Shown: positions 7,620-53,823 of the stretch, one piece after another
How positions within the stretch are numbered: position 1 is the stretch's first letter
Layout of the letters: the number at the start of each line of letters is the position of its first letter
IMG/VR virus record: IMGVR_UViG_3300024982_000001
Location: 1 to 53,823 of that record
Reading direction: 5' to 3' (one strand)
Length of the DNA stretch: 53,823 nt
Source of the DNA: a virus
Notes under the pieces: generated by a model
Databases searched by the model: none
Told to the model about the DNA's origin: nothing
What the model saw: only the letters and a program-made list of their open reading frames with translations
Translations under genes and position numbers: made by a program

Positions 7620-7662
7620 TTCATAACCCTGAGGTCGGGAGTTCAAATCTCCCTCTCGCTAC
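7620..7662 (+). other. attP core: 3' half of a CAU-anticodon tRNA gene
   Basis: The sequence reads as a tRNA from the anticodon loop onward: loop TTCATAA (7620-7626), stem strand CCCTG, variable AGGTC, T stem GGGAG/CTCCC around TTCAAAT (7637-7653), acceptor strand TCTCGCT and discriminator A (7661). No 5' half precedes it. Phages that integrate into tRNA genes carry this 3' part to restore the host gene. The likely attB is therefore a host tRNA gene with a CAU anticodon (elongator Met or Ile2). The adjacent integrase supports this. Confidence 0.85.
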
Positions 7663-7675
7663 AATAAAAAAAGAG

Positions 7676-7774: not shown

Positions 7775-9031
7775 ATGAAAAAAACATTCAACAGCTGCAC
7801 TCGAACAGAATTATGGGCTTCTCCGCCTGACTGGGAAACAACCACTTCAAAAGCATCTTTAAAGAAAATTTGGTCCGTCCAATGTGACTTCTATGACCCT
7901 AGTTTCAAAAAAAAGTATCCAAGGGGATTTCCCTATCGTAAAAAGTTCAACAAACAAACAACTGTCGAAGGAAGGAGAGCTGTCATTAAGTTGATGCTGT
8001 CCGAAATTCAGAAACTACTTGACGATAAAGGTTACAATCCAATTACAAAGAAATTCATGGCTCCGGAAGTTAAACCGTTGACGGGATCGTTACATCAGAA
8101 ACTCAATTTTATTGAGGCGCTGCGGATAAACTATTTGACCTTGACATGTTCTCCTGGTGTTAAAAGAGAAATGAAGCGCATTATCCGAAAAGTTGAAACC
8201 TCAGCTGTCGAATTAAAGATTGAATTTACAATCTTTGAAATGCATAGTGGCCATGTTCGTGATTTATTGGATAACCTCAACTTAACGCCAAACGAATACA
8301 ACAAGTATCTAACTCATTTATCAATTATCCTTTCCGATTTGGTAGAAAAGCGCATGTTGTTTCACAATCCTATTCGAGATATCAAGAAGAAAAAGACAAC
8401 CAAAAAACTGCGGGAAACTCTCGAAATCTCGGAACTTCAACAAATATTTGATTACTTGAAAGTCAATCATTATTCGTTTTATAGATACGGAATGATTTTC
8501 TTTCATTCAGGATCCAGGAGCTCCGAACTTTTCAGACTGCAGGAGAAAGATGTAAATCTTGGAAAGCAGGAATACAAATTGACAATAAGAAAAGGCAGCT
8601 ACTATAAAGAAGTATTGAAGCCGATTTTGTTGAATGTCATTCCTTATTGGACCGAGATACTTGCTTTAAGCAATAATCCAACAGATTATTTGTTTACTCG
8701 TGGATTGGCGCCATCGGAAACACCAACACAACCATATCAAATTACAAAACGATGGAAGCGATTAATAAAAGACAAAATGTGCTTCAAGGATGGTGAGTTG
8801 ATTGAGATTAAAAGCCTGGAGAAAGGCGATAAGAATTTCGAGAGAATCACCGCCGATTTTTACAGCTTGAAACATTTATTCCTTGATGAATTAGATAAGT
8901 TTTCAAGTCTTGCTGGTACCATTGCCGGACATACTACTGATGTGACTGAAAGAGTTTATTTAATTGGTAGGGAAGGACGTAAGAATGAAGCTTTGAAGAA
9001 TATTCAAATCAATGTTCTAACCTCAGCATAA
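7775..9031 (+). CDS. int: Tyrosine-recombinase integrase
   Basis: A 418-residue site-specific recombinase. A core-binding region spans about residues 105-205 and the catalytic domain about 210-400. Visible active-site positions are R248 (SGSRSSEL), a beta-hairpin Lys in TIRKGSYYKE, H386 (AGHTT) and the nucleophile Y395 (ERVY). The usual HxxR box reads YSLK (Y363, K366), so both the His and the second Arg are replaced; I have the impression that YSxKH variants are common in integrases of Bacteroidota. It lies next to attP, as expected. Confidence 0.93.
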   Translation: MKKTFNSCTRTELWASPPDWETTTSKASLKKIWSVQCDFYDPSFKKKYPRGFPYRKKFNKQTTVEGRRAVIKLMLSEIQKLLDDKGYNPITKKFMAPEVKPLTGSLHQKLNFIEALRINYLTLTCSPGVKREMKRIIRKVETSAVELKIEFTIFEMHSGHVRDLLDNLNLTPNEYNKYLTHLSIILSDLVEKRMLFHNPIRDIKKKKTTKKLRETLEISELQQIFDYLKVNHYSFYRYGMIFFHSGSRSSELFRLQEKDVNLGKQEYKLTIRKGSYYKEVLKPILLNVIPYWTEILALSNNPTDYLFTRGLAPSETPTQPYQITKRWKRLIKDKMCFKDGELIEIKSLEKGDKNFERITADFYSLKHLFLDELDKFSSLAGTIAGHTTDVTERVYLIGREGRKNEALKNIQINVLTSA

Positions 9032-9524: not shown

Positions 9525-9571
9525 TATTGTTGAATTTTAATTTTGCCTACTCTTTAGCTTTTCGGCATCCG

Positions 9572-10309
9572 CTATTTTTTAATACTAAATATCGACTTAC
9601 TAACTCCTAAATAAATCCTAGTATCGGTATCAAAAGAAGTCTTTATCATTGTACTTTCTCCAATCTGAAAATCTAAATTTGCCTTTGCATTGAATTTATC
9701 AAATGATTTTCTCATGCCGGCTTCAAGTCCTCCCCATAATGCAAATGCAGTCTTTTTCTCTTTAGGTAGTGTAAATTCGTAATCAAGTTTTAATCTCTCT
9801 GGAGCACCTCTTGATATTCCACTTACTGTAGCATTCAAACTGAAGCCCAAAGTATCTTTTTTGAATATGTGTGAGAATTCTACAGACTTGCAATCACTGT
9901 ATAGCTTCTGAAAGTATTTGTCGTTTGTGGCTTGCGCTAAACTATCAAGTACATTATTCGCAACAATAAGGCTGTCATTTTCTGATTTGGTTAGATTGTA
10001 AAGCTTCCGGAATTTAGTCACTCCAGAACTATCGATAATAGTTTTAAAGCTATCATGAATAATTTGTAGTTCTGGCAATGGCCTTACTTCTGATGGCTTA
10101 ACTACTACAGCAGGAAATGAGCCTTTAGTAACTATAGGTTTGCTTGGTTTACTCAATAACCACCACACAAAGGAAGTTAATAGTATAGCCAATATTACTG
10201 CTAGTATAAGCGTTCTGTTGGCATCGGTTCTGTTAATTTCTGTTGTCATAGGTTTATTTTTTTCTAACCAATCGTCAATAATGTTGTTTTTTGGAAATTC
10301 CAAACTCAT
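9572..10309 (-). CDS. Membrane-anchored periplasmic protein of the lysis cassette
   Basis: A 245-residue protein with one transmembrane helix near the N-terminus (about residues 31-49, ending FVWWLLS), then a Pro-rich linker and a long periplasmic part. The C-terminal 100 residues alternate in a beta-strand-like pattern (FALWGGLEAGMRKSF, then TRIYLGVSKS). It starts 4 bases after the endolysin stop. A spanin-like or envelope role is possible from position and topology. An internal start at residue 21 (MTTEIN) is an alternative. Confidence 0.65.
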   Translation of the reverse strand: MSLEFPKNNIIDDWLEKNKPMTTEINRTDANRTLILAVILAILLTSFVWWLLSKPSKPIVTKGSFPAVVVKPSEVRPLPELQIIHDSFKTIIDSSGVTKFRKLYNLTKSENDSLIVANNVLDSLAQATNDKYFQKLYSDCKSVEFSHIFKKDTLGFSLNATVSGISRGAPERLKLDYEFTLPKEKKTAFALWGGLEAGMRKSFDKFNAKANLDFQIGESTMIKTSFDTDTRIYLGVSKSIFSIKK

Positions 10310-33672: not shown

Positions 33673-35133
33673 TTATATATTAAGTTTTTTGATTTCTTCT
33701 TTTGATGTTACATATACTGTACTTCCTGTATTATGCGCAATATGACCGTACCTTCCCATGTCCCATATATGATTGAATTTATCAATCGGTTGATTTATTG
33801 AAATTCCATTAATCTCTTTCATTCTATAATTCTGTTGCTCTTTCAGCGCCTGTTGGTAAAGATGATTTTTAACAATGTGAATCTTTTTACCTTTCATAGA
33901 GTTGAGCCAATACATAACAGACTTTGTTTTGCTAATTTTATATGCATTTTCAAAGCCTTCATGCTTTAATCCTTTAACCATTTCAACCGTTCCCTTATTC
34001 TCACCGGTATATTTATCTGCTGAATCACATGGAATAATTGCCTGTTCATCAATATCTAAACTTCTCAAAAGAGCAGCTAGTTCCGGAGGTGTCTCTATTG
34101 GCTCGTAGCACAATGGCTCAATCCAAATATTATGTTCATCCTCGGCATATCTTCCAAGCACATTAGGATCAGTTGTGAATCCAAAGTCATTAGGATATAT
34201 TACCGCTTTATCTTGTGGCCATTGTTCAGGCTCAATCCATTCAACATAAGGGAAAATAACTCCTTTCATTGCTCCACGTAAACCAAGTCCATAAACCTTC
34301 CAATTGAATTCATCAGCTGTACCATTGGTTATGTTTGTTGGATGCGGTGGGGGTTGATTTGTTTTTGAAACAGGCTCAACCTTTTTTAATACCTTGTTGT
34401 AGCACATTATGATGCTATTTTCAACAAAATAGGAATCAGGAAGCCATGGTTCCCAGCTTAATATTTTATTCTTTTCTCCAACAGATATATGCTTGTTATT
34501 AAGATAAGTAGTTCTTAAAAATGCAACATCGGGACGGGAAAGAACATTGTCAAAGAACCAATGGTCAGTAACCGAAGGATTATAATCTGCCCACCAAAAC
34601 TTTCTGCATCTAAGCTCCACCTGGTCGAATACTTCCTTACGGATAAACATCATTTCATTGAAAAAAGCATAATCACAACCTCCACCGTGTTTTCCATCTC
34701 CAAGAAAAAAAATAGTGCTTTTACCAATCCTGAAACTCTTTACTTCTTTTGCTCGATGGAAAGGATTAGGAAGTCCATAATCATCAAGCCTACGTTTGAA
34801 ATCATCATATAGCGTAGTCTTGAATTCGTTGTATGTTTCCCGGTAGATATTGATTGTGCATCCATCAGGCTCTTGGTAAAGAGAAAGCCAAATTATTATA
34901 TCTACTCCTGACCATGTTTTACCGGAACGCGAACTTCCTTCCAATGCACAACCTCTGTATCCTCCAATCAACTCATCAATTTCATTATACATCTGCTGTT
35001 TTATGGCATTGTAAAGAAGTGCATAATTGGGATTAGTATCTTCATCAATTATTGTCAACCTTTTTCTTGAAATATCAACATCCCTTTCTTTCAAAAGGGT
35101 TTCTAATTCCAACATTTCGGCATCACTCAACAT
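33673..35133 (-). CDS. terL: Terminase large subunit
   Basis: A 486-residue packaging motor. Walker A is GSSRSGKT (66-73), Walker B-like is CDYAFFNEM, and the coupling region has WWADYNPS as in SPP1/T4-type terminases. The C-terminal RNase H-like nuclease domain starts near YPNDFGFTTDPN with further acidic residues in IIPCDSADKY. It is followed by portal. The small subunit lies apart, at 37083-37562. Confidence 0.94.
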   Translation of the reverse strand: MLSDAEMLELETLLKERDVDISRKRLTIIDEDTNPNYALLYNAIKQQMYNEIDELIGGYRGCALEGSSRSGKTWSGVDIIIWLSLYQEPDGCTINIYRETYNEFKTTLYDDFKRRLDDYGLPNPFHRAKEVKSFRIGKSTIFFLGDGKHGGGCDYAFFNEMMFIRKEVFDQVELRCRKFWWADYNPSVTDHWFFDNVLSRPDVAFLRTTYLNNKHISVGEKNKILSWEPWLPDSYFVENSIIMCYNKVLKKVEPVSKTNQPPPHPTNITNGTADEFNWKVYGLGLRGAMKGVIFPYVEWIEPEQWPQDKAVIYPNDFGFTTDPNVLGRYAEDEHNIWIEPLCYEPIETPPELAALLRSLDIDEQAIIPCDSADKYTGENKGTVEMVKGLKHEGFENAYKISKTKSVMYWLNSMKGKKIHIVKNHLYQQALKEQQNYRMKEINGISINQPIDKFNHIWDMGRYGHIAHNTGSTVYVTSKEEIKKLNI

Positions 35134-35877: not shown

Positions 35878-36069
35878 CTATAATTGGTTATTAATTGATT
35901 CACTTTGGCTTAAATCATTTATGAAAACATCTCCATCTCTCAACACAATTTCCAGATTATCATCCTCCGTTGTTTCAGCATAATCGAGTAGGGCATAGCC
36001 TATAAATTCAGCATCAGTTGTATGTTGTCCATTGATAAAAATCTGTCCGTTATTGATGCTTACTATCAT
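35878..36069 (-). CDS. Hypothetical protein, 63 aa
   Basis: A 63-residue acidic protein beginning MIVSINNGQIFINGQHTTDA, with strand-like ends. It overlaps the AP2-like gene by 4 bases (ATGA), which suggests coupling. Unknown function. Confidence 0.58.
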   Translation of the reverse strand: MIVSINNGQIFINGQHTTDAEFIGYALLDYAETTEDDNLEIVLRDGDVFINDLSQSESINNQL

Positions 36070-36287
36070 GCTTTTTTAAGTATTTGAAGTGGTTTATTTA
36101 GTCCTAATGCTAAAATCTTTCTGTCTCTTGATTTGGCTGCGACTCTTTCTTCTTCATGATATCCACATTCATATCTCACTTTCTTATCGGTTACATAGGC
36201 AACCCACTTCTGAATGTCTCTTCTCCATGTTACACCAACATACTTCGATGTTCTTTTCTTTTGTTGCTCTTGCGCTTTTGTTAGCAT
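36066..36287 (-). CDS. Small AP2/ERF-like DNA-binding protein
   Basis: A 73-residue protein. Residues about 13-65 fit the AP2 domain pattern: SKYVGVTWRRDIQKWVAYV, then CGYHEEERVAAKSRDRKIL, which is three strands and a helix as in AP2 domains of phage HNH endonucleases. No HNH motif is attached, so it is a stand-alone AP2 domain, either a remnant of a homing endonuclease or a DNA-binding regulator. An N-terminal QEQQKKRT tail precedes it. Confidence 0.7.
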   Translation of the reverse strand: MLTKAQEQQKKRTSKYVGVTWRRDIQKWVAYVTDKKVRYECGYHEEERVAAKSRDRKILALGLNKPLQILKKA

Positions 36288-36414: not shown

Positions 36415-36472
36415 TAACCGATGCCTACATCTCAGACAAGAGAGGAGTTTATGAAGGAACAGCTTACTTTAG

Positions 36473-36545
36473 TTGCGAGGGAGGGATTCGAACCCTCGAC
36501 CTGTAGGTTATGAGCCTACCGAGCTGCCAACTGCTCTACCTCACG
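36473..36545 (-). tRNA. tRNA-fMet-like (anticodon CAU), initiator type
   Basis: A 73-base tRNA reading from 36545 to 36473 folds fully: acceptor CGTGAGG/CCTCGCA, D stem GAGC/GCTC, anticodon stem GTAGG/CCTAC with loop CTCATAA, T stem GAGGG/CCCTC. Initiator marks are the C1-A72 mismatch, A11-U24 in the D stem, and G30-C40 and G31-C39 in the anticodon stem; 29-41 is A-U instead of G-C. G2-C71 and G4-C69, used by formylase in E. coli, are present. CCA is not encoded. It differs from the elongator-like fragment in attP. Confidence 0.92.
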
Positions 36546-36563: not shown

Positions 36564-36595
36564 AAAAACCTCTCTAGGCATGTAGAGAGGTTTTT
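36564..36595. terminator. Strong bidirectional terminator
   Basis: A perfect 13-bp stem AAAAACCTCTCTA (36564-36576) / TAGAGAGGTTTTT (36583-36595) with a GGCATG loop. It ends the 36616-37002 gene. The tRNA lies just beyond it, so the tRNA needs readthrough or its own promoter. Confidence 0.9.
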
Positions 36596-36615: not shown

Positions 36616-37002
36616 TTAACAGCTGTTTCGGGATAAAGCCAAACCTAGCTTTTGTAAATTCTTTTCCTGATCTATTAAGTAATTAGAATTTAACTTTTCA
36701 GTAAATCGAATCTGTTCAAACCTAGCATCTAAGCTTTGCCACCCTACGTCCAAAATGGTTGCAAAGGATTTAACAGGTTCAAAATTTCTAACTACATAAT
36801 TTTGGGTTGAGTGACCCGAAAAGATTGTCACTACATCGTAGTCGACAAAAGAAAAAGAAAGTACATCACCAACGATTGTAGAGACATGGAAGTCTTTAAC
36901 AATTGCTGTTGTTTGTTTTGTCTCCGGCAATGGAGTACTTGACATCGCCGTTAAACTAATCATCCCGATTAGTAAAATAAAGAGTGGATTAAAATTTTTC
37001 AT
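36616..37002 (-). CDS. Secreted protein with its own promoter and terminator
   Basis: A 128-residue protein with a Sec signal (MKNFNPLFILLIGMISLTAM, cleavage near SS/TP). The mature part has a beta-rich first half (DVLSFSFVDYDVVTIF) and a helical second half ending SRNSC. It is a single-gene unit: promoter with tandem boxes at 37026-37066 and terminator at 36564-36595. Such isolated secreted genes are often prophage cargo. Function unknown. Confidence 0.7.
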   Translation of the reverse strand: MKNFNPLFILLIGMISLTAMSSTPLPETKQTTAIVKDFHVSTIVGDVLSFSFVDYDVVTIFSGHSTQNYVVRNFEPVKSFATILDVGWQSLDARFEQIRFTEKLNSNYLIDQEKNLQKLGLALSRNSC

Positions 37003-37025: not shown

Positions 37026-37066
37026 CAAATGTAGCATATTTTGATAATAAATAGCAAAATATGATA
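37026..37066 (-). promoter_or_regulatory. Promoter with tandem TATCAWAWTWTGC boxes (copy 1)
   Basis: The -7 box TACATTTG lies at 37033-37026 (minus), with transcription start expected near 37019. Directly upstream are two direct repeats, 37046-37034 and 37066-37054, spaced 20 bases. The layout equals that at 39363-39403 (32 of 41 bases identical). The boxes occupy the -15 to -50 region, so a repressor or activator could act here. Confidence 0.72.
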
Positions 37067-53194: not shown

Positions 53195-53823
53195 CTAGAA
53201 CTTTACTAGCTTTTTAAACCTATCAATACCATAAGCATTAGATTTCACAAGAATTGGAAGCAGTTCTTTAGCTTTAATTCCTTTTTCTATAATAATTGCT
53301 CTTTCCTTCTCATTGAATTGGCTTTGCATCCAAGAATTTACTCCTAATTCACAAGCGCCAGTCAACAATCTATAATGCTTGATTGTAATAATTGTGTCTT
53401 CTAAAATTGGTTCGCTTTTCAGTTTTTCAGCAATAAGTTTAAATCTGAAATCCTCTTTTGCTTTTTGAAGAGTTTCTCCGTGAGCGTGAGTTTTGCCGTC
53501 AGTAACTAAGTAGAATTCCTTGGTAGAATGCACTTTTCTAACCTTGTAAACATTGCCTTTTTTACTCAAGACTTCTGTAAACATTCTGTCGGCACTTACA
53601 TATTTTCCGTCTTGCCAAAACAAAAGTTTGTTTTTAGGAGTGTTTAAAAACGCATCGGCTTTTGGCTTCGTTGTTTTTGCAGTAAGTCCGCTTCGCAGGT
53701 CTAAATAGCCACCCACAGTTGGGTTGAATCCTTCTGGAATTGATGTTAGGCTTCCGAGGTCTAAATAGCCACCCACAGTTGGGTTGAATCCTTCTGGAAT
53801 TGATGTTAGGCTTCCGAGGTCTA
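53195..53823 (-). CDS. Leucine-rich-repeat-like phage protein, C-terminal part (runs off the right edge)
   Basis: This is the continuation of the gene starting at 581. After two repeat units, of which one duplicates unit 1, the last unit reads GGYLDLRSGLTAK and the chain leaves the repeat. The C-terminal 150 residues form a separate domain (KLLFWQDGKYVSADRMFTEV, GNVYKVRKVHSTKEFYLVTD, then TGACELGVNSWMQSQ) that accompanies such repeats in phages of Bacteroidota. It ends at 53195. Function unknown. Confidence 0.85.
   Translation of the reverse strand, partial: DLGSLTSIPEGFNPTVGGYLDLGSLTSIPEGFNPTVGGYLDLRSGLTAKTTKPKADAFLNTPKNKLLFWQDGKYVSADRMFTEVLSKKGNVYKVRKVHSTKEFYLVTDGKTHAHGETLQKAKEDFRFKLIAEKLKSEPILEDTIITIKHYRLLTGACELGVNSWMQSQFNEKERAIIIEKGIKAKELLPILVKSNAYGIDRFKKLVKF
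53691..53823 (-). repeat. 60-bp tandem repeats (right part of the tract)
   Basis: One unit with the CGCA variant begins at 53691, a full unit lies at 53748-53807 and 16 bases of a further one follow to the edge. Bases 53748-53823 equal bases 1-76, so this is the overlap of a circular or terminally repeated sequence. Confidence 0.95.

Follow-up and report, generated by a model that had tools for sequence, protein, structure and literature searches.

The 53,823-nucleotide viral sequence analysed here (hereafter the window) encodes a complete initiator-type tRNA in which one of the three G-C pairs of the anticodon stem (29-41, 30-40 and 31-39, hereafter the triplet) is replaced by A-U. Initiator genes recur upstream of the terminase gene in related phages, and the core that contacts the ribosomal P site is conserved across phage initiators. 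From sequence comparisons, we consider it probable that the gene specifies a working initiator which supplements or replaces the fMet tRNA of the host during infection, and that the outer pairs of its triplet are relaxed.

Identity of the tRNA gene

ARAGORN detected one complete tRNA in the whole window, a tRNA-Met(CAT) on the minus strand at about 36472-36545, and the Rfam tRNA model aligned from 36545 to 36473 (62.8 bits, E 2.5e-11). The gene (36473-36545, minus strand, anticodon CAU) reads, 5' to 3', CGUGAGG UA GAGC AGUUGGCA GCUC G GUAGG CUCAUAA CCUAC AGGUC GAGGG UUCGAAU CCCUC CCUCGCA A, with the pairs C1xA72, G2-C71, U3-G70, A11-U24, A29-U41, G30-C40 and G31-C39. Three features of initiators are present, namely the lack of a Watson-Crick pair at 1-72, a purine at 11 with a pyrimidine at 24, and a CAU anticodon inside a complete cloverleaf. 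The fourth, three G-C pairs at 29-41, 30-40 and 31-39, is lacking at 29-41. The full triplet is not necessary for initiators; chromosomal initiators of the sampled Alphaproteobacteria deviate from it likewise. Pair 3-70 is a U-G wobble where hosts have C-G, while G2-C71 is kept. CCA is not encoded, A73 being followed by CUA.

Scored with a covariance model of 18 chromosomal initiators, the window tRNA reached 87.2 bits, compared with 67.5 bits for a model of 14 CAU elongators, all of them phage-encoded. Initiator identity is thus supported by both the covariance scores and the identity elements. The sequence-only reading had assigned C1-A72, A11-U24, A-U at 29-41 and two G-C pairs, all of which match the sequence, and its call of an initiator-type tRNA agrees with the model scores, which could have favoured elongator Met and favoured the initiator instead.

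The phage, its host and the tRNA slot

The window is an IMG/VR virus record in which an integrase, a CI-like repressor, a RecT-like protein, terminase, portal and a major head protein were found; it represents a temperate phage with relatives among the prophages of Flavobacterium and other Flavobacteriaceae. The terminase large subunit (33673-35133, minus strand, PHROGs) was used to find relatives, which numbered 79 in viral contigs and 12 in bacterial genomes. As the latter were mostly Flavobacterium or other Flavobacteriaceae, it can be inferred that the host is a bacterium of this family.

The tRNA occupies a slot approximately 1.3 kb upstream of the terminase. Several relatives carry an initiator there, and in others the slot is occupied by a different tRNA (Met, Tyr, Trp, Leu, Phe, Ala or Pro) or by odd tRNA-like genes, or lacks a tRNA altogether. 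A small HNH-endonuclease-like ORF (36066-36287, minus strand) lies downstream of the tRNA towards the terminase; its 73-aa product matched phage HNH endonuclease families (PHROGs, 2.6e-10) and, weakly, the AP2 domain. The tRNA-like genes of the slot (L007 4587-4693, L018 1023-1126, L014 4151-4220, L034 5039-5152, L055 3790-3909, L080 3884-3991) are 70-120 nt long and have a GGGGAAG...CTTCTCC acceptor and normal D and T arms; in place of the anticodon arm there is a long hairpin or none, and no anticodon can be clearly recognised. Recurring across relatives, they look like a distinct tRNA-like RNA. Chimeric CAU tRNAs were also observed (L014 4327-4398; L297, the record of L008; L103 c7532-7620), combining an initiator-like 1-72 mismatch and CUCAUAA loop with an elongator-like D stem; the one in L103 has a long variable arm. 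In phages unrelated to the window (L264, L269, L270, L276 and L283, i.e. crAss-like cr60_1, several Bradleyvirinae and PaMx74), an initiator tRNA adjoins the terminase large subunit gene as well.

Two further observations concern the window as a whole. An identical 60-bp tandem repeat is found at 1-509 and 53690-53823, within ORFs running off the contig ends, which suggests a circularly permuted genome cut at the repeat that may be near complete. An Rfam DUF805b RNA match above the gathering score (9544-9575, minus strand, 45.6 bits) sits between ORFs of unknown function.

Anticodon stem in the phage family and in its hosts

In all seven initiator lineages of the terminase family (7/7), exactly one pair of the triplet is broken, at differing pairs: A29-U41 in the window, U29-A41 in L049, A31-U39 in L005, L007 and L013, G30-U40 in L016/L018/L020, and U31xU39 in L032/L033. 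An intact copy is present in seven Flavobacteriales genomes and, among the matches listed, in 149 Bacteroidia genomes, four of which also hold G31-U39 copies. Taken at face value, an intact triplet in 0/7 phage lineages versus 149/149 genomes corresponds to p = 3e-12, although the seven lineages share the slot and are not fully independent. The sequence-only reading was therefore right that the stem is variant, in that A-U at 29-41 departs from the G-C of the likely hosts; the variation is, however, not peculiar to the window and belongs to a broad phage pattern (see below). The nearest sampled chromosomal initiator to the window tRNA has an alignment score of 59 of 74. Initiators with a four-pair anticodon stem (U31xU39) were seen in L032 (5366-5440), L033 (543-617) and L094; such stems make up only 0.2% of bacterial tRNA-fMet in a 2026 survey of bacterial tRNAs (PMC13092985).

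Anticodon stem in phages at large

Initiators in phages had been implied to be rare. This did not hold, as 254 phage records contain a similar tRNA, many of them with an annotation of tRNA-Met or tRNA-fMet. We scanned IMG/VR with a pattern in which the D stem, loop and variable loop were fixed and all ten stem bases were free. The matches listed, together with the family members, comprised 122 distinct initiators, nearly all from IMG/VR. Among these at least 122 sequences, the triplet was intact in 29, changed at one pair in 76 and changed at two pairs in 17. Position 29-41 in the matches listed was A-U in 51, G-C in 44, U-A in 26 and C-A in one, and never C-G; 30-40 was G-C in 115 of the 122, and 31-39 was G-C in 97, C-G in 12 and mixed in the rest. 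The absence of C-G at 29-41 is not an effect of composition, since the freely varying neighbour 28-42 was C-G in 62/122 of the same listed matches.

When the same pattern was applied to hosts, 29-41 was almost always G-C in Gammaproteobacteria (three copies had A-U) and always A-U in the sampled Alphaproteobacteria. U29-A41, found in 26/122 viral initiators, did not occur among the listed host matches (p about 1e-15, taken against a nominal 300). Alphaproteobacteria-type tRNA-fMet genes were located within approximately 100 nt of IMG/VR contig ends in L132, L144, L157, L187 and L203, possibly representing prophage attachment sites or host flanks; those of L132, L187 and L203 carry the alphaproteobacterial stem TCAGG/CCTGA. 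Host genes at contig ends, most of them alphaproteobacterial, account for some of the IMG/VR entries and inflate the A-U count, and we discarded the raw IMG/VR tally as an overstated measure of phage-host contrast. The U-A count and the named phages are unaffected. The contrast with hosts therefore rests on U29-A41 and on the comparison of the phage family with its Flavobacteriaceae hosts.

Among named phages with known hosts, A-U or U-A occupies 29-41 in Cellulophaga phi4:1, cr60_1, Erwinia pEa_SNUABM_47 and its relative Serratia BF, Vibrio phi-Grn1 and nt-1, Alishewanella Slicko01, Pseudomonas Milchi, Gordonia Phendrix, Streptomyces Wakanda, Xanthomonas DoCa5 and Caulobacter J4. All three G-C pairs are kept in Prevotella Lak-B1, Stenotrophomonas QDWS359, Pseudomonas pf16, Mycobacterium Burrough and others.

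Distribution of constraint along the molecule

We compared, site by site, 23 phage initiators (the terminase family plus named phages), for which A11-U24 and CAU had served as selection criteria. Positions 2, 8, 10, 14, 30, 33-37, 44, 48, 53-56, 58, 60, 61, 70 and 71 never deviated from the host consensus, and the strongest departures were at 27-43, 29-41 and 31-39; sites that do not vary in hosts were for the most part unvaried here as well, those of the T loop included. A conserved core with changed flanking pairs is what would be expected of a tRNA that still sits in the P site. In published structures, A1339 of 16S rRNA makes the main contact on G30-C40, and G1338 reaches pair 29-41 via the 2'-OH of nucleotide 41 (PMC11497404). 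With C29-G41, the amino group of the G would lie on that side of the groove, which may explain why C-G is absent. An A29-U41 stem is workable, since all sampled Alphaproteobacteria use it in their own initiators.

Expression of the tRNA

A near-perfect, symmetric hairpin with a T run, resembling an intrinsic terminator (36564-36595, minus strand; fold -16.6 kcal/mol), lies 18 nt upstream of the tRNA on the same strand and bears out the strong terminator previously noticed beside the gene. A simple terminator scan did not report it. Directly upstream of the hairpin is an ORF of 128 aa (36616-37002, minus strand), whose product starts with a signal-peptide-like sequence and had no match in the PHROG or Pfam search.

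The promoter consensus of Bacteroidota is TTG ... TAnnTTTG. A regular-expression scan revealed a promoter-like TTG-N21-TACATTTG just upstream of the 128-aa ORF (37026-37057, minus strand), the only strict TTG-N17-23-TAnnTTTG match on the minus strand of the window. Chance matches must be common, since the other strand holds 18 strict ones. This predicted promoter probably drives the 128-aa ORF. As the Bacteroidota-type site is situated upstream of the terminator hairpin, the tRNA is likely to be expressed from it by readthrough. Promoter-like sites of the same kind were found approximately 12 nt upstream of the tRNA in L016 (TACTTTTG) and also upstream of the tRNA in L049. In L049, an ORF that begins shortly before the tRNA extends into the tRNA gene itself and was excluded as evidence. 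A scan of the window for E. coli-type promoters was uninformative (12 found versus 9.9 expected).

A model of the phage initiator

We propose that, in the lytic phase, the tRNA would be transcribed together with the genes that lead into the packaging operon, from the promoter at 37057-37026 with readthrough of the hairpin. The transcript would be processed, supplied with CCA, charged and formylated by host enzymes, and the phage initiator would add to or replace the host pool of fMet-tRNA while phage proteins are made. The G-C triplet is required in E. coli for initiation and for 30S maturation. According to the model, G30-C40, the main ribosome contact, would be kept, while the flanking pairs 29-41 and 31-39 would be less constrained than those of the chromosomal gene, since an additional tRNA that is present only transiently would be exempt from the full demands of fidelity and ribosome maturation. 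One pair of the triplet would therefore usually be replaced, at 29-41 only by pairs without G41.

Several lines of sequence evidence argue for a working initiator: i) the covariance scores, ii) the conserved P-site core, with 29-41 devoid of C-G and 30-40 nearly fixed, iii) the use of A29-U41 in Alphaproteobacteria, iv) the broken triplet in 7/7 family lineages as opposed to the intact one in the listed Bacteroidia genomes, and v) the promoter-like sites. Three points count against it or could do so. U3-G70 replaces C3-G70; G2-C71 and C3-G70 are formylation determinants, and the latter pair helps formylation (PMC7949028). Expression could be reduced by the hairpin that separates promoter and tRNA. 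Finally, an E. coli initiator with all three pairs changed is inactive (PMC10486304), which by analogy would speak against function. It is difficult to distinguish relaxed constraint from selection for change, and the fact that every lineage of the family breaks the triplet suggests more regularity than drift alone would produce.

Other explanations of the broken triplet

Selection for change could have come from host defence. The stem of the phage initiator might no longer fit a host RNase or toxin recognising the G-C triplet, so that initiation would continue after the host fMet tRNA is cut. Breaks at differing pairs in 7/7 lineages are what would be expected if any break suffices, and U29-A41 is confined to the viral side (26/122, none among the listed host matches). 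Enteric VapC toxins do cut tRNA-fMet, between A38 and C39 (PMC4105405), and other types of phage tRNA carry loop changes proposed to evade nucleases (PMC10264068). However, the tRNA(fMet)-specific VapC (NF010285), the best-known toxin cutting fMet, was found in 0/60 Flavobacteriaceae genomes, and any PIN-domain protein (PF01850) in only 7/60, which leaves evasion of VapC unsupported; the window tRNA has an unaltered anticodon loop, which is where VapC cleaves, and part of the phage sample, named phages included, keeps the full triplet. We regard this explanation as unlikely. We are just as hesitant about a related idea, that phage initiators are selected to break the otherwise near-universal triplet and keep G30-C40 because host initiators, recognised by their intact triplet, would be targeted by a phage-triggered host RNase or by some other control.

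It is quite improbable that the gene is a passive or decaying passenger, acquired from a host or from a different phage and retained in the slot by chance. The content of the slot upstream of the terminase is indeed fluid among relatives, yet neither the cloverleaf nor the initiator elements are damaged, a change on one side of the stem is in most cases matched on the other (A-U, U-A), no C-G occurs at 29-41 among the initiators listed, and the same slot is used in several relatives. Lower still do we rate the chance that a weaker grip of G1338 alters initiation, by changing start-codon choice or favouring phage mRNAs. Changing the adjacent pair to C30-G40 does shift start-codon discrimination in vitro (PMC11497404); nevertheless, the critical pair 30-40 is unchanged here and A29-U41 is ordinary in Alphaproteobacteria. 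Sizeable ORFs of the window begin mostly with ATG and in only a few cases with TTG or GTG, and retuning of start codons was rejected for want of a visible excess of unusual starts. Both possibilities are less likely than a working initiator or evasion of a nuclease.

Many temperate phages use tRNA genes as attachment sites. A truncated 3' half of a tRNA-Met (7621-7663, plus strand) adjoins the integrase (7775-9031, plus strand; PHROGs integrase 1.8e-17) and is the likely attP core. At first it gave the impression of an initiator 3' half; comparison with complete host genes, found in three Flavobacteriaceae genomes, identified it as elongator tRNA-Met. Similar fragments recur in the relatives L311, L312 and L314, and the 3' half of host elongator tRNA-Met is the likely attP of this phage group (window; L310-L312, L314). 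In L295 (200-480), a complete tRNA-Met is joined to phage sequence resembling that following the attP element of the window. The initiator gene is not the attachment site, because the likely attP core is this elongator fragment beside the integrase; the notion that the initiator serves as an attP carrying host tRNA, which has next to no probability, was rejected on account of that element and by the integrated form in L295, the initiator moreover lying 28 kb from the integrase and diverging from host fMet along its 3' half.

Implications

A review calls the triplet highly conserved across all domains of life (PMC7949028). Phage initiators amount to a large set of natural variants in which the triplet is broken according to a pattern, 29-41 being free among A-U, U-A and G-C and never C-G in the initiators listed, and 30-40 being nearly fixed. 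With their help one could examine which features the ribosome truly demands of an initiator, and whether phages take advantage of a host check on initiation or escape it. If an intact triplet did mark the host initiator, the stem would be a site of an arms race in translation initiation.

Comparison with known systems

Phage-encoded initiators are already known and common, and A29-U41 initiators already exist in Alphaproteobacteria. Phage initiators that, as a group, break the triplet while keeping G30-C40 are a pattern absent from the literature searched, which mostly excluded subscription papers. The window tRNA shares with chromosomal tRNA-fMet of Bacteroidia the CAU anticodon, the CUCAUAA loop, the 1-72 mismatch, A11-U24, G2-C71, the AGGUC variable loop, G30-C40, G31-C39 and the lack of an encoded CCA; it differs in having A29-U41 for G29-C41 and U3-G70 for C3-G70. 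The chromosomal tRNA-fMet of Alphaproteobacteria has the same triplet as the window (A29-U41/G30-C40/G31-C39), but belongs to another host phylum, encodes CCA, has a different D loop and T arm, and is the cell's own initiator rather than a phage copy.

Nuclease-evading phage tRNAs (PMC10264068) resemble the window tRNA in that their anticodon arm differs from that of the host tRNA. Their changes lie in the loop, whereas that of the window initiator is in the stem, with no known nuclease in the host family. The initiators of Cellulophaga phi4:1 and crAss-like cr60_1 are, like that of the window, phage-encoded, carry A29-U41/G30-C40/G31-C39 and come from phages of Bacteroidota hosts (presumed for cr60_1). 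The one in cr60_1 is located just upstream of the terminase gene, as in the window, while that of phi4:1 lies within a tRNA cluster. Both phages are unrelated to the window, and their 1-72 positions are AxC or U-A instead of CxA.
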